Shown one piece after another: positions 17,361 through 32,441 of a stretch of 32,974 bases of DNA (position 1 is its first letter; every line of letters begins with the position of its first letter). Source of the DNA: Candidatus Uhrbacteria bacterium (GTDB taxonomy: Bacteria > Patescibacteriota > Patescibacteriia > 2-12-FULL-60-25); contig JAHFIK010000004.1 of assembly GCA_023246415.1 (NCBI GenBank), positions 13,563 to 46,536 on the forward strand. Direction: 5' to 3'. Position numbers and translations under genes: made by a program. A model generated the notes under the pieces. The model saw only the letters and a program-made list of their open reading frames with translations. It was not told the DNA's origin and ran no database searches.

Positions 17361-20300
17361 TTAAATGGCTTCACCTGGTAAGAGGACGATGGATCCTGGA
17401 TACACGATCCATGGACGATCCGCGCTGTTACTGATCGAGAGTGTTGAGCACTCGTTCGGACCAATGGCCGTCGTGAAATCGATATTATTCCTGACGAGCG
17501 AGGCATCGTAACACCCGCCGTTCGGATGGAGGACCGGACTCTTCGAGACATCAACCAGCTTCCCAACCTGATTCGTGGCCCCGCGACATTCGCCGCTACA
17601 CCATCCCCAGTTGTCGATAATCATGACACGCGGGGTGAAGAGACAACGGTTATTTGCGGAGTCATAGCACCCACCCGGCGCAGACATTGTATCCACACAG
17701 GAGTCGGTTGGTCCGCATCCCGCGGCGCACGTCCGGCTATTGTCGCGTGAGCACCGTCCAACCACACTCGTCCCGCTCAAACTACACGCGGTGAGAACGT
17801 TTTGTGCATTCGCCGGACAGGAGAACGCGTGACGGAATTCAAGATACTGCTGTTCACACGCGTCACTTGAATTTCCGAAGTAGATGCGTTTTTCACAGGT
17901 TCCGGACTCACTGCCAATCGTACATTGCTTGTCGTTAAAGCACTTTGTGTTCGGATTATTTGAGCAGTTCCCGTAAGACTGACAGGACCCTCCGCCCGGC
18001 GGACAATCATTGTCCGTGTTACACGTCAGCCCCGGCGTATCCGTACATTCCTTGTTCGTATCGCAGAACGGCTTGCGGTTCTTCATGTAGGCATCCGGCA
18101 ATTCAGACGTCGATCCGTCTCCCCAATCCACAATCACGCGACGAAGCGGCATCTGTTCATGCGAAGCCCAGGCGTAGAATCGGAGTGCGGCCACGTGATT
18201 CCCAACGCCACCGTTCGCCAGTCCGCCGACGAGCCCATCCACCGACAGCGTGTCCAATCCCGCAACGCGGCACTGCTGTCCCTGACACGTTCGGATATCC
18301 GGAGCGGCCGTGTGTGGAGGCTGTGGCGAGTAATAATCGACGTAGTTGAACTTCAAGGTGGAATCTGGTGGATACGTCGCCGGGTTCAGGAATCGAGGGG
18401 TATACAGACCCGGGGTGACATCCGTTGGAAGCGGCACGGTATCCTTCACGCTATTTGAGACGTTTGTCAGATCGTATCCGAACAATCCGCAGTATTCATC
18501 ATTTGGATCAAGGCAGTAGTTCGGTCGTGGCCAGTATCCCGGCGGATGCGTACAGATATTTGAATCCTGTGCCGGATCGGTTTCAAGTCGAGGATTCTTT
18601 GGATTCGATGACGAGTAGTTCGGCCAGCAATCCGTATTCACACTCGTTCGATCGTACGAATTCTGTGGATTCGTCGTGTCGTTCCCAGAGGTCACCGGAT
18701 TACACCAGTTATCGGCATCGCTCAGCTTCACACCTGCCGGACGACAGTCTGAGTCTTGGCCACACCCGGCCCCCGCGCGTGTTCCCCCGCGGCAGGTGCC
18801 ACCGATCACGGTACTCGTGGTCTTCGAATCACGGAACATGAGCGCCACAGATTCACACGCACCGTAATGCGCAACCATGGTCGGCGAGACGTTGTTCGGA
18901 TCCCAGCTCGCATTCTTCGTGAAGTAGACAAACGGCGCCGCACTGTTCTGAACCTGATTCATGTCAATCTTCCCCGCACCGAAGTTTAGCTGGTTGTAGT
19001 CACTCCCGTTTGCACTCCAGAACACAAGTGGATTAAACCCTGGCATGAGCTGCATCAGACTCCGATCATCCCAGGAATCATAGGACAGGGTATGCGTCCA
19101 GACGGCACCAGACACCGACGGAGAGATCGCCGTAAAGAAGAGCTTCGTGCTTTCACCTGTTGGTCCGGTCCAGTTTCCTGCGGTGAGCTGCGTATCCCAT
19201 GAAACGGATGGATAGAAGGCTGCCTTGGCCGCGTCACGATTCTCGACCAAGCGAAGACCAAACTCTGATCCGAACCAGTCGGTCTGCGCATAATGGAAAT
19301 CATAGCTTCCGGACGGATAAGCCGTATTCCCAAGCGATTTATCACGGTACCCCAACGGCCAAGCGGACTCTTCACCCCATCCAGACACCATGAATCGATT
19401 GTTTCCATCGCCGGCTGGCCACCAGTTTCGAGCAAGGAACGTACAGTCTGCGCTCGTCTTGCACTGTGCCCATGGAGAACCGCCACACGTTCCAACCGTT
19501 TCGCCAGATTCAATGTTGCACTGCTCGGAGCCAGACGGCATGGCAAGCGGACACTCGTGACTGCGTGTCGACAATTTTGAACAGTAGCTCGCGTATGTCT
19601 CCCCCTGCCCAGCATAACTCTGATAGACCTGATCCGGACTCCGAACCGAACCCGCTTCACAGCGGAACGCACCCGCCTTCACCGCATCCGCCCGTGAGCA
19701 TCCATTCTGATTCGAACTTCCAACCACGCCATCCCACGTACAGTTGCTCAAGCTCCCCGTCGGACAGTCCTTCCCGGTACAGCGATAGTTCTTATTTACA
19801 CTCGTCCATTTCGCATCAATCGCAGTCCCATGCGACGCATCCGCCGGCGTATAGCCTTGGAACAGCGCACAAGCTCCAAACATCGGTGTCGGGACGCCAT
19901 CCTGCTCGGTCATTGGCGCAATGTGACAGATATCCGGATTCCCTGAACAATCCAATCCGCGATTCAATCCGCTGAAGGAGTTACACACCTTGCTTCCGAA
20001 CACGTTCCGCGCATCCAAGCTTCCCTTTACGCACTTGCCCGCATATCCGCAGTACTGTTCCGCAAGCGACTTCTTCTTCGCATCCGCATCCGACCCGCTC
20101 ACGAGATCCAGGTTCGGACACCACTGTCCAAACTGCGGGGACGCCCGGTTCGTACATGCCCAATCGCTTCGGCTCACAGAACGCGTGGAATACCCGTAGA
20201 TGCGGTAGATGCGCGCGAATACATTTGAAAGGAGCCCCCAGTTGCTCGTCGGATACGTTGATGACTGGAAATAGGTCTGGCCCGGGAAGGTGAATGTCGG

Positions 20301-23300
20301 CGGATTCAACGGGTTCACTTGAGACTGTTTAACCCCAGACATGTACAGCGGTTGTGTTCCTGCCTCCCCTGTTGCGAGCGATGCACCGAACGGAATATTC
20401 GTGGTGTTCCAAGTAAATCCATTCTTCAACGCGTATCCGCTCTGCGCCGAATTCCGATCCGTGAACACCGTTGAGTCGTGGCTGTCTTTCGAAATCGTTT
20501 CGACCAATTCTCGACAGACGTCCGCGCTGTTCATCTTCATCTGCATGTAGATGTACCGCGTCTGATCACCCGGCGCACATGCCGACACCCACAACCCAAC
20601 GAACTGGAACGGACCGGTGAGATGTTCCGGATTCACTTCAAGCGCGTCGAGATCGTTTTCTGATGAGGCGACATCCTCGAAGACGGCTCGGATGGAGAAC
20701 CATGGGTGCGAGGAATCGCACTTCCCATAGAGCGGATGCGTCGAAAGGCGGTCCAATGATTCGCGCCCGATATCCGGCGAGAATGCCAAGAACTTATCCT
20801 GACCTTGCGAGCGATAATCAATCTGCCAACTCTTGATAAAGCACTGCTGCGTTTCCGGAGAACGATCTGCATCGCCCATCACGCAGTCCACCTTTACCGG
20901 AATGCCGGTCGGACTCCCGTCTTCCGTGACGATCTGCGCATTCTTCCGATCAAGCATTCCACCACCTTCTTGCAGATACTTCTTGAAGTTCGCCTGCCAC
21001 GCATCGTCCTGTGGTTTCCAACTGTCGACATCTCCCCAATCTTTCACTGCCGCGTCGCCCCATTCCTGGCTATATCCGCATCCGATCTTTCCCGCCGGAA
21101 CGTTGAATTCGAAACTGGAGATTGAATCCTCGGTTGAAAAGTCCAAGACCGTTTCTGGATCTGTCGGCGTGTACCCAAGCGTCCCGTAGGCGATCTCAAC
21201 CGGGTTCATCATGAACGCGTATTCCGCGTAGGAACGATTCGTCCCTTGTCCGGTGGTCACCAGCCGCATTTCATCTGTCTTATAGATAAAGGCCTGGTCC
21301 TCATCGTCCACTTCTTCACAGATATTCCCCTGCTGCGTGCCGTCTGAATTCTGTCCATCGATGGACGCCCCGCTTTCGCCTCCTGTACATCCACCCACGA
21401 AGAGGAAGTTCACACAGCTCCCATCTGACGTAAACCAATCCGCGTAGAACAATGCGCTAATTGCGCCTGCGTAATTTCCTGAACTGTTCGGCATGAATCC
21501 GACACCTGCAATACAGGTCATGTCCTCACCGCATCCGACCGGTCCACCGATATTGTTTGCTCCAGCAATGTAATACCCCGTATCCGCACTCGCCTTGAAT
21601 TCCATATACGCCGGAACGTACATAGCGAGCGCAACAGCGGTCCAGCTAAACCCTTCTCGCGGCACATCATTCGGACGCCACGAGTATGGCCAGAGATACT
21701 GACTCCGCGGTCGACGAATCGGCGAGGAACAGTAATATCGTCCGGAAGACTGTGGAGGTTTGAAGCCTGATGTCGGTTCCCAGTGATACTGATCGCCCGG
21801 ACCGGTCAAAATCGGATTCGGATTCCACAGCAGACATTCGCTCTGCGACGAACCTGCACGCGGCCGCGAGATGTCATACTCCAAACACTGTCCGGTCATC
21901 CCTCGAACGAGCGTTGAATCGGTAATCGGAACACACTGGCCTGATCCGCACTGCTGAATACTGTCACCATGCGGCGCTTGATAGTTCACATTCGCCGTCC
22001 CGGTGGCTCCGCCGCCTGGCGGCTCACTTCCTGAAATCGAGACATCTGCCGTACATGGAAGACCATCGCGTGGACCGCCTTGGCAAACCGCATTCACCAC
22101 ATCTGTCGATAACGGTTCGTAATATTTGAGTGTCCCCTTATATCCGACCCGCTTATAGACACATTCACAATCTTCGCCGTATTCGCAGAAGGTCGCATTC
22201 GTGTACCCGTCCACCACCCGTTTCGGTTGCGGCGGATTCACCGAATCATCCCACTCAATCACATACGCATTTCCAAACGGAGCGGTCGCTTCTGGGGAGG
22301 CTTTACACTGCGTATTCGGGAAGGCACGCGACAACATCTGATCCTGACTCGGATTTTGATCTTGCGTAAACCGTTGATCCAGGAATGGAACCACGAGGTT
22401 ATCGGATACGATCGTTGTGGCCACCCCGCCGATCGCTGGCGGACGTTCCTGGTCCACCGCTTCCCAGCAGAGATCCGTCTGTGCCGCCGCAACCACGCTC
22501 GACGGATTCGCGGAATCATTCGTCTTCTTCAACAGACCGTCAGATGTCGTGAGGACGCCCATCGCTCCGGTCTGCTTCAAGATACAAACATACTTCGAGA
22601 GGAGCGGCACGGATGCGAGTGACGAGATATCTGCCGCACTCGGACTCACATTCACTAAGCCACTCGAAACCGGCACCGGCACGCCCAGACGATAATCTTT
22701 CTTGAGACTACTCTTCGTTTTCGGATCCAGCGTGAGCATGGAACCAATTGGCTTCAATTTTGCATCAATGATCTGGAAGTGATTCGGAATCGTGAGCCCG
22801 CTGTAGTCCACCGCACCGAATCCAACTTTTCGGGTTGCGTAGGTCATCGCATCGGTCACGGCATATGGCTTAAAGATCGTCTCGCCAATACCGGTTCGAT
22901 TCACATACCCCGTGCAGAACGGCACCCCTTCCGCGCCCGTTTCACCGGACGAGTTACACAACGCAAGATCAGAACAGATATTCTTATAGGCCCCGACGGA
23001 CGGATCATAGACCGTTTCACCAGTTCGACAGGCGAGCCATTGGGAACAGGCGCGATCCGGCTTCACCTTCACCACGAGATTCGTGTCATTTCCTGTTTTT
23101 GCCGCGGCGCCGGAACAGCTGATCATTGCCTGCTCGGGCGTCTGTCCTGCGGACCCGGCTCCGGCAAGACATCCGGTAAACCCACCATCCGTGGCGTGAT
23201 CCTCCGCATACGCTTTCGCATACGTCAGACGCGCTCTCACACATGACGGATGATCCGGCGTTCCGACACAGTCCACCGGACTCACCGGTCGGTACCCGCG

Positions 23301-26300
23301 CTCGCGATACGCATCTTGCGTAGCCGCTGAGCTGAATCGCATGGTGTTATCTGATGTATCACGGAACAAGACACATCCGTTTCCTGGATCCACTTGGCCA
23401 TTACAGCTCGCCGTATCAAGACGACTATCATTCACGATGTCGTATGGACGACCAGCTGGATGCGCAGGATCGCTGACATCATTTGGATCACGGAACTCTG
23501 TACATTCTGCCTGATCCTGTGGACACGTTGCCGTCCAACCGTGGTAGGTCTGATTCGTTCCATCGGCATTTTTTCCATAGAGGCTCTGATCCGCACCGAC
23601 CCAGGCGTTATATCCGGCATCACCGGTATATCGGAGACCGAAGACGCTTCCAGTGATCAACCGATCCGGGTAACACGGACAAGAGGTTCCGGTCTTATAC
23701 CACCCATCGTATGTCCTGCCGGAAAAACGAGACATATCCTGGCCGTCACACGTCGCCGGAATAACAACCCCCTGCTTCCATTCACAGACGTGATCACTTG
23801 GAGCGCGGAAATAGGCCGTTGATGATTGCCCATTTGCATTGTACGTGTACGCTTCACAGAACAATTCCGGCTGCGAACAAAGCGCATTGCTGTAATTCGA
23901 CGGATCGTCTTTGAGGTAGACCGTGGTAAACGGCGTATCCGTCTTCAGCGCAAGACGATCCTGCGTGAATTGCGGAAGACCGAATGCGCGACACCCCTTT
24001 GCTGAATCCGGACACATCTTTGCCTTTGATGGAATGTAGTATGCGAAATGATCCGCCGGTTTGACGGTCACCTCCGTGACGCCACCTGATCCCGGCTTTT
24101 CCCAACGTGATTCATACGGCGTATCCGTGTTCTCTGTATTCACGTACGCCTGACATCCGATCGCTGTTTCGCGACAGAGTCGACTGAACTGCCGTGCGTT
24201 CACCGTGACGTTTGATCGATTCGTATACGCCTCACACCCCAACATCGCGTGTGGCTCTGGAATCCCTTCCGGTGTTTGGTCACATGACGCCGGTGTCTGC
24301 CAGGAATCCTTCACGACATACGTCACGTCCGAAACACGCTCCACACGAATCTTATCGATGAAGAACGAAGCCGTCCCAAGCCCTTCCAACCGAATTTCGG
24401 TTGCGTTCGCATTCGGGTAGTTTGAATCACTGGTAAACGGACCGAGGCGGTACACGCGCCACTCCGATGACACTGAAACCGTTCCAATCGGGTTCCCGAC
24501 CCCCATCGCGCGCGTTGCCGGATCAGACCAAGTGTATGCCGACACCGCAACGTCCTGAGGCGGACCGGCTCGCTTCGCCCAGAACGTCAGTTCATACATG
24601 ACGCCAGACTCGGTCGGAACGCTGAAGTACATGTAAGACCCGTTCGTTGGAACCGCCTTCAACGAGCTGTCGCCAACCAAGACAGATTCCGTCGATCGCG
24701 ACAACCCAACGCTTGAAGCGCCTGGACCGACCTTCACCGTGCTCACGTCCGTATCAGTCGTGAAGTCATCGCTCCACACAAGCGTCTGCGATTTTCCAGC
24801 CGTACCGACATATCCACGACACCCTGCAGCTGCCGGCGTACAGGACTTCGATTTTGTCCCAAGCGCTTCATACGTACAGGCGTTCGTCTGTGCGTTAAAC
24901 GCCCCGCCAGTTAACCGACAGTCTGCTTCGCTCGACCGATCCAATCGGAACTGCTGACAGTTCGTATCTGAAAGCACGGTCTGTGACTCAAATCGATAGA
25001 AGACATTTCCCTGCGGATCGTAGAACTGACGACAGTCTGGATCGAATCCGCGAATATAGGTATCCGCATTACAATCGCCCGGCGTCTTCAATACGCCATC
25101 TGGACCCGGCTTCTGCACAACGAGCGGTCCCTGCGGCGCGGTGGCCGTCAGATCACGAACCATGCTCCAGGTCCGAAGTTGGAACCCAGTGTCTTCCGAC
25201 CCTTCCCACGTGTAGTACGTCTGTGCCGCATCGCTTGGCTGCTGACAGCTTCGAAGATAACTGTACGCTGCAGAGACATCGCCGCCATTTGCGGCTGCGC
25301 CAAGATTTGTAAACTGCTCACATCCAACATCTGCCGCTGTGCAGAAGCGCGCCGTATCCGGAACAAAGTACGCGACGGTTTCATCATTCGGATCATCCAG
25401 AAGCGGCTGCGATGGATTATGAACGTAATCAAACGTTGATGGCTGTTTTCGGAATTCTGAATAGCCGACACACTCCGACGGACAGGAATCAACCGCAGAC
25501 AGCACGGCTGGAATTTCAGGTGCCCCCGGCTGACGCGTTAATCGGTACCCATCACATCCGGCTTCATTTTCTCGACAGACTTTCGCATAACTGGCACAGA
25601 GCGGATTATCCGTACTTTCCCCCGTACATCCGAGTTCCGCTGGCGGGATCTTCATGTCCACCGTGTCCAAATTGGCATTCAACCCATCCGCAAATGGCGT
25701 GGCCACTTCAGACTCTTCGAGCTTGACCGCATCGATGAGCGGGGCAGACGCATTCCCCGCAACAACGAAGACCAATCCCCAAACCGCGTTTGCCGGAGCC
25801 GTAAACGAGCACTGCAAGCGCTGCCAGTTCGATCCAATCGTCGACGGAATACCGACATTCACGTTGGTATTCCGCGAGCCTGCAACGCTATTCGTGTCCG
25901 TGCATCCAGAGGTCTTAAAGAACGTTGTGTCCGTTGTCTGATTCGCTCCCTTTGATGGAACCAGATTTGGATCTCCGCCCTGGATTGGGAACATCTGAAT
26001 CGTCACCCCGGCCGCACTTGGTGCTCCAGCACCAGCGCGCGCGTAATACGAAATCGTATATTGATGAGATGGGGTCAACCGAACAAGCTGTCCAAGTGAT
26101 CCGGGTGGTGGTGGAACGATGGCGCGCGCACCATCCGCAGAGACATCACCGGTCGTCACCGCCGGAACCGCATACGCCAACGGATCAAAATTCTTTCCGC
26201 TCACGGATCGGTTCGTCCACCAGCGCCGCCATCCGACGAGTTCTCCGGACGCTGATGAATCATCCTCTTCAAAGGAGCCATTTTGAATCAAGTTAATCGA

Positions 26301-28415
26301 TGGTTGACCGGCAACAACGGACTTCAACTCCGTACACCCATCGTTCTTCGCATCACATGTTGATGCAGACGCATCGAAATACACTTTCCCAAGCGTTCCG
26401 GAATAGGTTGCGGTCCATGCATTATCTCCCGCGAGCGGATTACGCGTCGTGGCGTACCACATACACCCGACGTTCGACGCGCTGCAATTTCCGTAATCAA
26501 CAGAACTCCGCAAATACCCAATCGGCTTTGCGTTCGTCCCGCGTGGCGTAAACATGCGGCAGCTGACAAACTGCTCGCTGCACGACTGCCCTTGGAATTG
26601 CCAGTACGGCTGTTCCGCCAGACAGTATCCATACCCACCGATACATTTTCCATCCGCGTCCCGCTTCAAACAGGAGACGGAATCTTGGCATTCAAACTGT
26701 CGATCCGCTGTCCCGGTGAGCAACGTATTTCCGTACCCCTTCACCGTACACTTTGACGGGAAGGCATCGAGCACCCAATTCGGATCAATCAAGTGACACC
26801 ACGGATGTGCATCGTCCAAGGTCCCCCGGACGCTTCCGCCATTCGCGGTATCGTAATTACAATCGTCGAACTTTGAAACGACTTCACCGAACGTAATACA
26901 TCCGACACCGCTCGCGCATCGTTGGTTGTTAATTGAAGAATCTGCCGCCAATTCCCAGCCGATCGGAATGATCCGCGCGAGCCGCAACTTTCGAAGGTTT
27001 GCGACGCAGAATCGATCTCCATTCGAAGCGCATGAGGGATCCTGGTTCTGTTGGATATCGGACGCTGGAATCAATTTTGCATTCTTATTAATAAATCCCT
27101 TGTCCAAGGCTTCACGGACCGTCAGCCCGCCTTGGGTCAACGCGAGCGCGAGATTCGCATCAATCGCGCACGACCAGCGCGTGCGCGTTCCTCCGGTACA
27201 AGAGGCCTGAAGTTCCGCGAGCGTATTCTCCTCTTCAGCCGACGTCAGCTTCGGCGTCAGAATATCTTTAAATTGTTCTGAGAAAATTTGCTGCGGTTGC
27301 GTGGCCTGCGGTGGTGCCGCAAACGGATTCGTCAAATCCAACGTGGACCCCTTATCCGCCGACGGCTGGAACAATCCTTTCATCACCTTTGAAAGCAATT
27401 TGGACGTCAGCGTATTCACGAACGTCGCGATGGTTGCTTTTCCGATTTCCACGAATCCAAGTTGGAACGCGTTCATGACAATGCCGAGACGCGTCGTTTG
27501 CTCGTTCTCTGCCGGACCGCGAATCAGCTGCTGATCAAATTGTTCTTTCACGGTTTGTGACGGCGTCTTGATGCTCCCGGTGACATAATCTTTGACCGGC
27601 TTATATCCCATCCCTTCCAACCGATCGAGAATCGCCCCCTGCTCGCTTCCGGCAACGGCATCGAGAAGCGGCGTGTGCAACGCAACCGCATAGGACAAAT
27701 CATTCCCTCCGGTCTGGAAGGTGGCTCCAATATTCGCAAGCGCGTCGGCGTTTGAGAGGGATGCTGCAGCCGTACTCCAGTTCCGCGTCAGCTGTGCCCA
27801 AGGACATTTTGGTGTTGGCCGCTTCAGCGGAATCGCGATGTCTGGAATGGAAAGCGCGAGCGAGAGGTTGATGGCTTGCCAGCTTGGCGGCTTACACAAG
27901 TTGAGCCCGAACTTACTCGTGAAGTCTTCCGAAAGCGTCCCGACGAATTCACCAAGCGCATCCTTACTCACGTCCGTGATGTAGTCACCGAAACTCTTTC
28001 CGTAAAACAACGGTCCCCCGGCCGGTCCCCCATCCGCAATCCAGGACGCGGTGTCGTACGCGATGGTCTGAGCGAGGTACGTGGCCGCATTCAAAAATCC
28101 GTAGAGCGCGGCTGTCAATAAATGAAACTCAATCGCGTTCTCCACCCGATCAACCGTTCCCTGTGCCTGACCCGTATCCGTACACAACCCCAACCCCGGA
28201 GCGGCGAGCAAGAAATCCGTACATGGCTTCGGCTTCACGGGCGGACCGACCGTCGACTGCCACATCTCCTCCGCATGCGCCACCGGGATCCCGATGATCC
28301 CCATGAGGACCGGATTCGTAAACGTGATTGACGCGAGCAAAATCCCAAGGAGGATTGTGGCTCCGAATCGCGTGGTAAGCACTTTTGGCTTACGGTTGTG
28401 TTGGTGATCCAGCAT
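17361..28415 (-). CDS. giant (3684 aa) secreted Cys-rich protein
   Basis: Single uninterrupted ORF; N-terminal signal ATILLGILLASITFTNPVLMGIIGIPVAHA|EE; repeated C-x5-G-C motifs (CRENEAGC, CTAADVGC, CTPAAAGC, CRETAIGC, CPDSAKGC, CDAKNDGC, CSASNVGC); jelly-roll/CBM-like segments; PKD-like VDWGDGSTSE near the C-terminus. Confidence 0.9.
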   Translation of the reverse strand: MLDHQHNRKPKVLTTRFGATILLGILLASITFTNPVLMGIIGIPVAHAEEMWQSTVGPPVKPKPCTDFLLAAPGLGLCTDTGQAQGTVDRVENAIEFHLLTAALYGFLNAATYLAQTIAYDTASWIADGGPAGGPLFYGKSFGDYITDVSKDALGEFVGTLSEDFTSKFGLNLCKPPSWQAINLSLALSIPDIAIPLKRPTPKCPWAQLTRNWSTAAASLSNADALANIGATFQTGGNDLSYAVALHTPLLDAVAGSEQGAILDRLEGMGYKPVKDYVTGSIKTPSQTVKEQFDQQLIRGPAENEQTTRLGIVMNAFQLGFVEIGKATIATFVNTLTSKLLSKVMKGLFQPSADKGSTLDLTNPFAAPPQATQPQQIFSEQFKDILTPKLTSAEEENTLAELQASCTGGTRTRWSCAIDANLALALTQGGLTVREALDKGFINKNAKLIPASDIQQNQDPSCASNGDRFCVANLRKLRLARIIPIGWELAADSSINNQRCASGVGCITFGEVVSKFDDCNYDTANGGSVRGTLDDAHPWCHLIDPNWVLDAFPSKCTVKGYGNTLLTGTADRQFECQDSVSCLKRDADGKCIGGYGYCLAEQPYWQFQGQSCSEQFVSCRMFTPRGTNAKPIGYLRSSVDYGNCSASNVGCMWYATTRNPLAGDNAWTATYSGTLGKVYFDASASTCDAKNDGCTELKSVVAGQPSINLIQNGSFEEDDSSASGELVGWRRWWTNRSVSGKNFDPLAYAVPAVTTGDVSADGARAIVPPPPGSLGQLVRLTPSHQYTISYYARAGAGAPSAAGVTIQMFPIQGGDPNLVPSKGANQTTDTTFFKTSGCTDTNSVAGSRNTNVNVGIPSTIGSNWQRLQCSFTAPANAVWGLVFVVAGNASAPLIDAVKLEESEVATPFADGLNANLDTVDMKIPPAELGCTGESTDNPLCASYAKVCRENEAGCDGYRLTRQPGAPEIPAVLSAVDSCPSECVGYSEFRKQPSTFDYVHNPSQPLLDDPNDETVAYFVPDTARFCTAADVGCEQFTNLGAAANGGDVSAAYSYLRSCQQPSDAAQTYYTWEGSEDTGFQLRTWSMVRDLTATAPQGPLVVQKPGPDGVLKTPGDCNADTYIRGFDPDCRQFYDPQGNVFYRFESQTVLSDTNCQQFRLDRSSEADCRLTGGAFNAQTNACTYEALGTKSKSCTPAAAGCRGYVGTAGKSQTLVWSDDFTTDTDVSTVKVGPGASSVGLSRSTESVLVGDSSLKAVPTNGSYMYFSVPTESGVMYELTFWAKRAGPPQDVAVSAYTWSDPATRAMGVGNPIGTVSVSSEWRVYRLGPFTSDSNYPNANATEIRLEGLGTASFFIDKIRVERVSDVTYVVKDSWQTPASCDQTPEGIPEPHAMLGCEAYTNRSNVTVNARQFSRLCRETAIGCQAYVNTENTDTPYESRWEKPGSGGVTEVTVKPADHFAYYIPSKAKMCPDSAKGCRAFGLPQFTQDRLALKTDTPFTTVYLKDDPSNYSNALCSQPELFCEAYTYNANGQSSTAYFRAPSDHVCEWKQGVVIPATCDGQDMSRFSGRTYDGWYKTGTSCPCYPDRLITGSVFGLRYTGDAGYNAWVGADQSLYGKNADGTNQTYHGWTATCPQDQAECTEFRDPNDVSDPAHPAGRPYDIVNDSRLDTASCNGQVDPGNGCVLFRDTSDNTMRFSSAATQDAYRERGYRPVSPVDCVGTPDHPSCVRARLTYAKAYAEDHATDGGFTGCLAGAGSAGQTPEQAMISCSGAAAKTGNDTNLVVKVKPDRACSQWLACRTGETVYDPSVGAYKNICSDLALCNSSGETGAEGVPFCTGYVNRTGIGETIFKPYAVTDAMTYATRKVGFGAVDYSGLTIPNHFQIIDAKLKPIGSMLTLDPKTKSSLKKDYRLGVPVPVSSGLVNVSPSAADISSLASVPLLSKYVCILKQTGAMGVLTTSDGLLKKTNDSANPSSVVAAAQTDLCWEAVDQERPPAIGGVATTIVSDNLVVPFLDQRFTQDQNPSQDQMLSRAFPNTQCKASPEATAPFGNAYVIEWDDSVNPPQPKRVVDGYTNATFCEYGEDCECVYKRVGYKGTLKYYEPLSTDVVNAVCQGGPRDGLPCTADVSISGSEPPGGGATGTANVNYQAPHGDSIQQCGSGQCVPITDSTLVRGMTGQCLEYDISRPRAGSSQSECLLWNPNPILTGPGDQYHWEPTSGFKPPQSSGRYYCSSPIRRPRSQYLWPYSWRPNDVPREGFSWTAVALAMYVPAYMEFKASADTGYYIAGANNIGGPVGCGEDMTCIAGVGFMPNSSGNYAGAISALFYADWFTSDGSCVNFLFVGGCTGGESGASIDGQNSDGTQQGNICEEVDDEDQAFIYKTDEMRLVTTGQGTNRSYAEYAFMMNPVEIAYGTLGYTPTDPETVLDFSTEDSISSFEFNVPAGKIGCGYSQEWGDAAVKDWGDVDSWKPQDDAWQANFKKYLQEGGGMLDRKNAQIVTEDGSPTGIPVKVDCVMGDADRSPETQQCFIKSWQIDYRSQGQDKFLAFSPDIGRESLDRLSTHPLYGKCDSSHPWFSIRAVFEDVASSENDLDALEVNPEHLTGPFQFVGLWVSACAPGDQTRYIYMQMKMNSADVCRELVETISKDSHDSTVFTDRNSAQSGYALKNGFTWNTTNIPFGASLATGEAGTQPLYMSGVKQSQVNPLNPPTFTFPGQTYFQSSTYPTSNWGLLSNVFARIYRIYGYSTRSVSRSDWACTNRASPQFGQWCPNLDLVSGSDADAKKKSLAEQYCGYAGKCVKGSLDARNVFGSKVCNSFSGLNRGLDCSGNPDICHIAPMTEQDGVPTPMFGACALFQGYTPADASHGTAIDAKWTSVNKNYRCTGKDCPTGSLSNCTWDGVVGSSNQNGCSRADAVKAGAFRCEAGSVRSPDQVYQSYAGQGETYASYCSKLSTRSHECPLAMPSGSEQCNIESGETVGTCGGSPWAQCKTSADCTFLARNWWPAGDGNNRFMVSGWGEESAWPLGYRDKSLGNTAYPSGSYDFHYAQTDWFGSEFGLRLVENRDAAKAAFYPSVSWDTQLTAGNWTGPTGESTKLFFTAISPSVSGAVWTHTLSYDSWDDRSLMQLMPGFNPLVFWSANGSDYNQLNFGAGKIDMNQVQNSAAPFVYFTKNASWDPNNVSPTMVAHYGACESVALMFRDSKTTSTVIGGTCRGGTRAGAGCGQDSDCRPAGVKLSDADNWCNPVTSGNDTTNPQNSYDRTSVNTDCWPNYSSSNPKNPRLETDPAQDSNICTHPPGYWPRPNYCLDPNDEYCGLFGYDLTNVSNSVKDTVPLPTDVTPGLYTPRFLNPATYPPDSTLKFNYVDYYSPQPPHTAAPDIRTCQGQQCRVAGLDTLSVDGLVGGLANGGVGNHVAALRFYAWASHEQMPLRRVIVDWGDGSTSELPDAYMKNRKPFCDTNKECTDTPGLTCNTDNDCPPGGGSCQSYGNCSNNPNTKCFNDKQCTIGSESGTCEKRIYFGNSSDACEQQYLEFRHAFSCPANAQNVLTACSLSGTSVVGRCSRDNSRTCAAGCGPTDSCVDTMSAPGGCYDSANNRCLFTPRVMIIDNWGWCSGECRGATNQVGKLVDVSKSPVLHPNGGCYDASLVRNNIDFTTAIGPNECSTLSISNSADRPWIVYPGSIVLLPGEAI

Positions 28416-29775: not shown

Positions 29776-31665
29776 ATGTCTGAAAAAGAACATCCAAAGG
29801 AGAAAGAGCATAAAGAGCACATCGCAAAAAGCGTGGACAAAGCCGCAGTCAAGGCCGCGATCACTTGGACGCTTGTCGCTGCAGGGATCTTTGCGGTCGT
29901 CGTGGGACTCGGGGCGCTCGCCTTCTTTGGATATGATCGACTGTATTCGAATCGGATTTTTCCCGGCGTCCGTGTCTTAGGCGTGCGGATGGATGGACTC
30001 ACGGCAGACGAGGCACGAACCACCCTGCACGCATCCATCGACAGTGCCCTCACGAATGGCGTCCGGTTTTCCTATGCCGGTCGTGAGGTCGCACTCGGAA
30101 GCGCAACCGTTGCACAAGATCCGGATCTCTCACGCGACTACGTCACCTATAATGTCGACGATGCCGTGAATGCCGCGATGGGCGTTGGCCGAAGCGGAAA
30201 TCCGATTCGCGACACGCTGGCGCGCTGGATTGCCCGCGCAAAACCGATCCAACTCGCCGTGGCAACAAATATTGATACCGACGGGATCAAAAGCGCGGTC
30301 ATGAAATCGCTCGGCAATGACATTTCACCGGCTCAAGACGCACGCATCATTGTGCACTGGGATGCCGCCGCACAGGATGCCCGTGTGGACGTGCAGGATG
30401 CGAAATCTGGAAAGAGCATTGTCTGGGATGGCGCCATGGAAGCGCTCCGGCGTCAGGCGGCCACGCTCAAATTCGCCCCGATCCCCCTCCGCGACACTGT
30501 GACCCAGCCAACGCTCCTCTCAAAGGATGTCGAGCCATTAAAAAATGATGCAGAAGCCCTGCTCGCACGCGCACCCATCACACTCACCTACGTCGACAAG
30601 GTCTATCCGATTTCAAAAGAGCAGTTCGCCGGATGGGTGAATGTCGTGAAGACGAATGGCAAGCTGTCCGCAACGATTGATCCAGACATCTTCGCAAAAC
30701 AGATCCGCGAGATCGCTCCGATTGAAGTCCGCGCACAAAAAGGGACGCTCGAAGTGAAAGATGGAAAGATCACAAACTTCACCGCAGGGAGCGTCGGCAT
30801 CTCCATTGATGATGCCGCCACGCTCAAGGGCATCACCGATGGGATCTTTACAACCTCCACCTTCCCAATTATCGCGAACAAAGTTGACGCCTCCCTTGAT
30901 GGGAGCGACCCGGAAAAACTTGGGATTAAAGAGATTATTGGAATCGGCACCTCGGACTTCTCCGGGTCACCGACGAATCGCCGAAAAAATATTGCGAATG
31001 GCGTCTCGAAAGTGAACGGAACGATCATCGCCCCCGGCGAAGAATTTTCTCTCCTCAAAACATTGGGATCGATTACCGCAGATCAGGGCTGGTATCCAGA
31101 ACTCGTCATCAAAGGAAACGAGACGACTCCGGAACTCGGCGGCGGCCTCTGCCAAATCGGCACGACCGCCTTCCGTGCGGCGCTCAATTCCGGCATGAAA
31201 ATCACGGAACGGCGCAACCACTCCTATCGCGTGCGCTACTACGAACCCGCCGGCACGGATGCAACGATTTACGATCCATCGCCAGACTTCAAATTCGTCA
31301 ACGACACGAAGACGTCCATCCTCATCAACGCGTACATCAAAGGCGATATCATCACCTACGAATTCTGGGGAACGAAGGATGGTCGAAAAGTCACAGTCGG
31401 TCCATCGCAAATTTCAAATATCACGCCTCCCCCACCAAAGAAGACGATTGAAACGTTGAGCCTCAAACCCGGTCAGACGAAATGTACGGAAACGGCACAC
31501 GCGGGGGCAGATGCAGCACTCCCGTATCATATCGATTACGCAGACGGTACGGTTCACGACGAAGTCTTCCATTCCCACTACCGACCATGGCAGGCGGTGT
31601 GCTTAGTCGGCGTGGAGAAACTGTCGGATCCGGCAGCGGGGGCAGCGAGCAGTACGACGCCGTAG
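29776..31665 (+). CDS. VanW/YoaR family protein (PG_binding_4 + VanW domains)
   Basis: N-terminal TM; NRIFPGVRVLGVRMDGLTADEARTTL; VNGTIIAPGEEFSLLKTLG...GGGLCQIGTTAFRAALNSGMKITERRNHSYRVRYYEPAGTDATIYDPSPDFKFVND. Confidence 0.93.
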   Translation: MSEKEHPKEKEHKEHIAKSVDKAAVKAAITWTLVAAGIFAVVVGLGALAFFGYDRLYSNRIFPGVRVLGVRMDGLTADEARTTLHASIDSALTNGVRFSYAGREVALGSATVAQDPDLSRDYVTYNVDDAVNAAMGVGRSGNPIRDTLARWIARAKPIQLAVATNIDTDGIKSAVMKSLGNDISPAQDARIIVHWDAAAQDARVDVQDAKSGKSIVWDGAMEALRRQAATLKFAPIPLRDTVTQPTLLSKDVEPLKNDAEALLARAPITLTYVDKVYPISKEQFAGWVNVVKTNGKLSATIDPDIFAKQIREIAPIEVRAQKGTLEVKDGKITNFTAGSVGISIDDAATLKGITDGIFTTSTFPIIANKVDASLDGSDPEKLGIKEIIGIGTSDFSGSPTNRRKNIANGVSKVNGTIIAPGEEFSLLKTLGSITADQGWYPELVIKGNETTPELGGGLCQIGTTAFRAALNSGMKITERRNHSYRVRYYEPAGTDATIYDPSPDFKFVNDTKTSILINAYIKGDIITYEFWGTKDGRKVTVGPSQISNITPPPPKKTIETLSLKPGQTKCTETAHAGADAALPYHIDYADGTVHDEVFHSHYRPWQAVCLVGVEKLSDPAAGAASSTTP

Positions 31666-31710
31666 TGAGGGAGGTAAGGCGATACAGTATGGAGAGGTAA
31701 AAACGTTCTC

Positions 31711-32213
31711 TCCATTTTCCCGAGGAGTCCCCGACGAGGGATCCCTTGGAAGTGGCATTTGGAATAGGCGACGCCTCATGAATACCTATCCCAAAACCTC
31801 GCCAAATCACACCATGTTGGGTTCTGCCCTGCGATAAGACGCTCCTTCTTTTCACGGCGCCACGATTTAATTTGATATTCGCGAGCACGAGCCTCACTAA
31901 GCTCTGCATATTTTTCATAATAGACGAGCTTGTGACAACGATATTTTGATGAAAATCCTGGCATCGTATTTGCCTTATGCATACTCACTCTCCCAACGAT
32001 GTCGATCGTCGAACCGATATAGAGCGTACCGGAGATACTCGCCATGATGTAGACGCAAAATTCTTCAGATTGCATATCTGTATTCAGTGATCTACCGCGA
32101 GATGCAAGTCAATATTTCGAATTTTTGCTAAATCAAAATATTTTTTGTGGCCGTTCCGTTTCAAGAAGTCCCTTCCAAGGGATCCCTCGTCGGGGACTCC
32201 TCGGGAAAGTGGA
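31711..32213. mobile_element. inverted-repeat-bounded unit carrying a GIY-YIG gene
   Basis: 31716-31752 (tttcccgaggagtccccgacgagggatcccttggaag) is the exact reverse complement of 32172-32208; homology extends outward (tcca) with one mismatch. Mobility is inferred. Confidence 0.6.
31776..32075 (-). CDS. GIY-YIG nuclease family protein
   Basis: FCVYIMASISGTLYIGSTIDIVGRVSMHKANTMPGFSSKYRCHKLVYYEKYAELSEARAREYQIKSWRREKKERLI. Confidence 0.92.
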   Translation of the reverse strand: MQSEEFCVYIMASISGTLYIGSTIDIVGRVSMHKANTMPGFSSKYRCHKLVYYEKYAELSEARAREYQIKSWRREKKERLIAGQNPTWCDLARFWDRYS

Positions 32214-32282
32214 TAAAAAAAGCGCGTTTTCAAAAGCATCTCCTAACTCGCTAGAACGCTTCCGCCCTACCTCCCTAAACGA

Positions 32283-32310
32283 AAAACACCTCCCGCGGGA
32301 GGTGTTTTTC
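32283..32310. terminator. bidirectional terminator (28-bp perfect palindrome)
   Basis: aaaaacacctcccgcgggaggtgttttt. Confidence 0.85.
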
Positions 32311-32316
32311 TCTGCA

Positions 32317-32441
32317 CATAAAAAAGCCTTAAGCAATCCGTCTCCAAGAAATCTTATGACAGGAGAGTGCGAGTCCGTAGACCTGCGTCTTCCTGCAATT
32401 AGATCCCATGCTTGTCGTGGAAACGGACTGCTCAAGGCTTT
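32317..32441 (-). ncRNA. candidate structured small RNA (6S-like rod architecture; family unassigned)
   Basis: Minus-strand RNA: AAAGCCUUGAGCAGUCCGUUUCCA (32441-32418) pairs over all 24 positions with UGGAGACGGAUUGCUUAAGGCUUU (32346-32323), including 3 G-U pairs; central bulge; CAGGA/UCCUG helix; apical hairpin GGUC-UACG-GACU; ends GGCUUUUUU. Confidence 0.55.

Follow-up and report, generated by a model that had tools for sequence, protein, structure and literature searches.

Our analysis of the window, that is, the whole 32,974-nt stretch of DNA, indicates that its minus strand carries the gene of a structured non-coding RNA that is conserved in most members of a bacterial class, the GTDB class ABY1 of Patescibacteria. 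Taken as a whole, the data are best explained by a standalone structured RNA that acts in trans, forms part of the ABY1 core gene set and would serve as an RNA-protein scaffold, a reading to which we assign a probability of roughly 0.5.

The minus strand of positions 32317-32441 folds with a minimum free energy (MFE) of -61.1 kcal/mol, as compared with a mean of -30.1 kcal/mol (sd 3.4) for shuffled sequences (z = -9.2), and this value was matched by 0 of 200 shuffles, whereas the plus strand reaches only -45.0 (z = -4.95). Covariance model R1, built from 30 sequences that all come from the window's own family, gives this copy a score of 127.1 bits. The features of the locus are listed in Table 1. 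As in the original prediction, the closing stem is fully paired over 24 bp and contains exactly three G-U pairs (32433/32331, 32428/32336 and 32422/32342), and the predicted asymmetric bulge and C(UACG)G tetraloop were both located, the former as the 10-nt 5' bulge CGACAAGCAU at 32417-32408 and the latter at 32379-32376. The tetraloop does not characterize the RNA as such, because the apical loop differs among homologues. The 5-bp helix and 4x4 internal loop that had been drawn inside the stem are replaced in the MFE structure by a 7-bp helix above the bulge, followed by short helices separated by small internal loops. A second palindromic terminator had been placed at 32283-32310; the palindrome does exist, shifted by one base, and probably ends transcription in both directions as an intrinsic terminator 3' of the RNA.

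Table 1 Features of the RNA locus and its neighbour, in window coordinates
Feature	Position	Strand	Basis
ABY1 non-coding RNA, 122-nt structured core	32320..32441	-	Covariance model R1/R2 positions 1-122; MFE and z-score; homologues
Closing stem, 5' arm, 24 bp	32418..32441	-	Pairs 32441-32418 with 32323-32346
Closing stem, 3' arm, running into the U-tract 32320-32325	32323..32346	-	Pairing with the 5' arm
Conserved motif CACGACAAGCAUGGG (15 nt), 10-nt bulge and flanking pairs	32405..32419	-	Near-invariant in 75 sequences
UUCUUG facing the bulge, near-invariant	32345..32350	-	Its C-G and A-U pairs never vary in 75 sequences
Apical hairpin GCAGGUC-UACG-GACUCGC with conserved G-U wobble	32369..32386	-	G-U in 68/75 at that pair
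Perfect 28-bp palindrome AAAAACACCTCCCGCGGGAGGTGTTTTT, likely bidirectional intrinsic terminator 3' of the RNA	32282..32309		Hairpin of -17.2 kcal/mol
VanW / PG_binding_4 protein gene, convergent with the RNA	29776..31665	+	Pfam PF04294, 1.8e-41

A DNA search detected a homologue in 38 of the 41 genomes of the window's GTDB family, one per genome and with 72-84% identity, and with R1 the RNA was recovered from 240 of the 286 class genomes (209 of the 241 high-quality ones). When named GTDB genomes were scanned by pattern, matches came from Uhr-, Falkow-, Magasanik-, Kerfeld-, Buchanan- and Komeilibacteria. Among the 46 class genomes without an R1 match, 32 of which are of high quality, is G060, where the RNA was missed only through stricter filters or a longer arm; within the family, the weak match of G025 results from a masked stretch. 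Two single-contig ABY1 genomes, covered over ~0.95 Mb each, contain a single copy each, and what matches next best is noise. Family f32, which is Buchananbacteria-like, has two tandem, diverged RNA copies (L108, L111 and the Buchananbacteria contig L179). The outlier forms L242 (G060) and L243 (G233) both keep GACAAGCAUGG; one has a long apical-arm insertion and the other a closing stem of only ~8 bp. A clear ABY1 copy is also found on JAACEG010000018.1 (L183), labelled Lysobacteraceae. This label looks wrong and probably reflects a mislabelled bin, since the 8,765 bp and the match position are identical to those of the ABY1 contig G178:C78 (L117). Weak matches in G000:C28, G366:C17 and Verrucomicrobiaceae L189 were rejected as unrelated inverted repeats, a terminator or chance, and phage, plasmid and viral collections yielded no match to the RNA.

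Outside ABY1, the relatives picked up by covariance model R2 are diverged; they come from a small class (G389, G402 and G363, with G429 weaker) and from G471. These relatives keep the closing stem, the promoter and, where enough flank is present, RuvB or VanW neighbours; in the small class the bulge is shorter, with CACCUC or CACC before GGG. Therefore, the locus is older than the ABY1 motif.

Covariation was examined in two alignments. In the MAFFT alignment of the family (30 sequences, 124 columns), compensatory double changes occur in 18 of 41 predicted pairs. In alignment A3, which comprises 75 sequences from 51 family-level groups and was fitted to the R1 structure, so that its counts lean toward that structure, such changes are found at 35 of 41 base pairs, standard pairs fill 94.4% of pair cells (66.1% after shuffling), 868 cells carry double changes (232 +/- 17 in shuffles), and the covariation score is 0.748, as against 0.208 for shuffled alignments and at most 0.173 for slid structures. 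The family-only MAFFT alignment gave the same covariation pattern as A3. In the closing helix of the class-wide alignment, double compensatory changes affect 21 of 23 pairs. Moreover, the 75 homologues contain 374 G-U or U-G pairs versus 58 A-C or C-A mismatches, which fixes the RNA strand. This asymmetry also bears on whether the locus might be a palindrome acting at the DNA level, as a recombination or replication site, instead of an RNA gene. A large inverted repeat present once per genome would suit such a site, but the excess of G-U pairs on one strand and a promoter that points into the repeat leave it next to no probability.

Coding does not explain the region either. Competing ORFs are present in the window, but no frame is kept across homologues: the distance from AUG to UUCUUG in the 75 sequences takes every possible value modulo 3, and every given frame contains a stop codon in 50-63 of the 75, in line with the earlier statement that no convincing ORF accounts for this stretch. 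The RNA signal is not a product of chance, as conservation, covariation and strand asymmetry all indicate.

The sequence of the helices drifts freely in the 75 homologues; CACGACAAGCAUGG on the 5' strand, which makes up the first 14 nt of the conserved motif, and the facing UUCUUG are almost invariant. The bulge is 10 nt long in 74 of the 75, and a G-U wobble beside it is kept in 73. Spacing on the 3' strand is similarly constrained, with 12 nt from CCU to UUC, toward the upper helix, in 66 sequences and 23 nt to the CU of the apical hairpin in 63, and the closing arm measures 24 nt in 60-65 of them. UUUU is found at the 3' end of the RNA in 43 of 75 homologues, compared with 16 of 75 in the control. 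We also considered a pairing switch at the bulge, between CCA:UGG and CAAG:CUUG. The alternative is weaker by 1.4-6.6 kcal/mol (median 3.2) and ~1% populated, so that such a switch is possible but minor. Binding modules on a structural RNA usually show themselves by an unpaired motif that is frozen, by wobbles that are conserved and by spacing that is fixed within otherwise variable helices, and we infer that the new RNA carries modules of this kind.

An unpaired, invariant bulge on a stable scaffold could alternatively be the seed by which a base-pairing sRNA recognizes mRNAs or rRNA. We consider this unlikely, because the pairs flanking the bulge and the strand opposite are invariant as well, which would be an unusual property of a seed, complementarity to 16S rRNA does not exceed chance, with 20% of shuffles as good, and the full 10-nt complement occurs 0 and 1 times outside the gene in the two single-contig genomes (~0.95 Mb each), which share no antisense target of the bulge. 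A 10-of-11 match of the bulge to the h34/h35 region of 16S rRNA was discarded, being at chance level overall and differing between genomes. Base pairing of the bulge is therefore a less likely mechanism than an RNA-protein scaffold.

Upstream of most RNA loci lies a promoter pattern of the sigma-70 type (TTGACA/TATAAT). Of 74 loci, 53 have TTGAC-N16-20-TANNNT in the 120 nt preceding the RNA, compared with 3 in antisense orientation and 0.9 expected; no clear TTGACA/TATAAT promoter was found for the window's own copy. A VanW gene adjoins the RNA in 62 of the 74 loci. Counted over 63 gene matches, with one locus counted twice, it is convergent with the RNA in 48 cases; in the other cases it shares the strand of the RNA, lying downstream of it 8 times and upstream of it 7 times. 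On its far side, the RNA often has RuvB, in divergent orientation (17 loci), or ClpP, on the same strand (16 loci). Because VanW occurs in several orientations, mostly convergent, the RNA is a standalone gene and not the leader of one gene. The frequent company of VanW might suggest that the element is a cis-regulatory leader of this gene, or part of its 3'-UTR or terminator. However, the orientation varies, no fixed position upstream of one gene was found, the RNA has its own promoter, and a terminator would not retain an invariant bulge, all of which makes this explanation very improbable. Covariation, promoters, standalone synteny and the asymmetry of G-U over A-C together bear out the minus-strand structured non-coding RNA of the original prediction; the homologue search and stem covariation analysis proposed with it yielded homologues and a covarying stem.

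Two further features of the window were observed. A GIY-YIG endonuclease gene (31776-32075, minus strand) lies within 31706-32218 and is flanked by 59-nt inverted repeats that are 86% complementary, and a third copy of the repeat core is present at 2718-2744; the segment 31706-32218 has the appearance of an element, mobile or repeat-associated, that was inserted into the interval separating VanW from the RNA. In addition, a single ORF of 3,684 aa occupies 17361-28415 on the minus strand (11 kb, one third of the window), and its product seems to be a giant protein that is secreted or located at the surface.

It had been suggested that the RNA might be a divergent 6S RNA. Like 6S RNA (RF00013, ssrS), it is a single-copy rod with a closing stem, an unpaired internal region, an apical arm and its own promoter, and its fixed arm lengths and the strength of that promoter would also fit an ABY1 version of 6S RNA, that is, a promoter-mimicking decoy of RNA polymerase. 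In contrast to this expectation, RF00013 gave no match to the window, either at the gathering score or at E <= 10, and none in 19 relatives (0/19) even at E <= 10. The model does detect 6S RNA in other Patescibacteria, where four genomes exceed the cut-off, as well as in the ABY1 genomes G274 and G279, both of which have the new RNA elsewhere. Model R3, built from Patescibacteria 6S RNAs, identified 6S-like RNAs in 25 of 144 ABY1 genomes. Matches reached E < 1e-6 in eight of them, from eight families (G045, G093, G144, G096, G048, G168, G177 and G138), and all eight carry the new RNA at another place. The folds of these eight loci mostly show the GGGA...CCCACCU core of 6S RNA; Rfam's own 6S model is not significant on them. 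No credible 6S RNA was found by R3 in G185 and G205, and 6S detection in ABY1 is patchy. Since a 6S-like RNA coexists elsewhere in at least eight ABY1 genomes, the new RNA is separate from 6S RNA.

The two RNAs also differ in structure. The new RNA is ~122 nt long, compared with ~140-160 nt for the 6S-like RNAs of Patescibacteria, and it has a one-sided 10-nt bulge in place of a two-stranded bubble and lacks the GGGA...CCCACCU core. As the 10 nt face ~1 nt on the opposite strand and the adjacent helix covaries, there is no open two-stranded bubble. Membership of the 6S family is thus already largely refuted, and the decoy explanation has become improbable. The Patescibacteria 6S RNAs themselves (L255-L274 and L275-L283) are ~140-160 nt long, have the GGGA...CCCACCU core and mostly fall below Rfam's 6S cut-off, and could seed an improved 6S model; one of them, L273, adjoins two tRNA genes.

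Action on RNA polymerase does not require 6S ancestry. Ms1 RNA of mycobacteria, a housekeeping RNA specific to its lineage, is not part of the 6S family, and the new RNA might act on the polymerase as 6S or Ms1 RNA does while belonging to neither family. Its likeness to Ms1 lies in this general description, with no recognised similarity in sequence or structure. The ruler-like spacing between the bulge and the apical hairpin and the abundance expected from strong promoters would be consistent with such a role. However, the RNA has no promoter-like bubble, and many ABY1 genomes already have a 6S-like RNA, so that we regard this idea as doubtful.

The bacterial small signal recognition particle (SRP) RNA (RF00169, 4.5S) is likewise a hairpin rod, of ~110-120 nt, with a conserved apical region, and the size, rod shape and apical conservation of the new RNA are SRP-like. 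Moreover, the new RNA and SRP RNA have CAGGUC in common. Unlike 4.5S RNA, the new RNA has no recognisable Ffh-binding loops, and its tips are of UNCG type and varied. The host lineage differs as well, Ffh and FtsY being undetected in 19 genomes. In these 19 relatives, which are ABY1 genomes of seven families, RF00169 had no match at E <= 1 (0/19), and the Ffh M domain (PF02978) was found in 0 of 19 but in 14 of 14 control genomes. The search for the Ffh/FtsY GTPase (PF00448) returned only short P-loop fragments in the relatives, whereas all 14 control genomes were positive for this protein too. Because SRP RNA, the Ffh M domain and the Ffh/FtsY GTPase all went undetected in the relatives while the controls were positive, we rule out that the new RNA is the 4.5S RNA of ABY1, for which the chance now appears slight in the extreme. 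The SRP itself may have disappeared from ABY1.

At the gathering score of Rfam 15, only tRNAs matched in the window and 17 homologous loci, and below the gathering score there was no credible match to the RNA at 32317-32441. In the literature searched, chiefly open-access and without preprints, the motif string appeared in no relevant paper, and no paper on 6S or structured RNAs of Patescibacteria was found. The alternative offered in the original prediction, an undescribed sRNA, receives strong support from this absence from Rfam as well as from the covariation, the promoters and the standalone synteny. As far as can be judged from sequence, the RNA would represent a new family, although its mode of action may turn out to be that of a kind already known. 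It appears to be a new structured RNA of the housekeeping type, and probably the scaffold of an RNA-protein particle.

Such a scaffold RNA would be transcribed from its own sigma-70-type promoter, and the transcript would end near or in the closing stem, where this runs into the U-tract, or at the following terminator. It would form a rigid rod consisting of a closing helix of 23-24 bp, the frozen 10-nt one-sided bulge, an arm of fixed length and a small hairpin with a G-U wobble. Helices of irrelevant sequence would keep two recognition modules, namely the bulge with the facing UUCUUG and the apical hairpin, a fixed distance apart. By binding a conserved ABY1 protein or machine, these modules would make the RNA the scaffold of a particle; RNA polymerase is a possible, if so far unsupported, candidate for this machine. 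The scaffold RNA would act beside 6S RNA and would not replace it. In this form, the proposal is that ABY1 has a class-wide housekeeping RNA, of which a small related class has diverged versions at the same locus, and that this RNA assembles into an RNA-protein particle not known before, in a lineage in which no SRP was detected; we hold the odds of this to be about even.

The alignment of 75 sequences, the consensus structure and the invariant motif provide a ready model with which to search for transcripts, perform pull-downs and set up an Rfam family. Few RNA genes occur class-wide and once per genome, and those that do are usually core components, among them RNase P, SRP, tmRNA and 6S RNA. 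A hitherto undescribed RNA of this kind in genomes of ~1 Mb would therefore point to an unknown core process of Patescibacteria.
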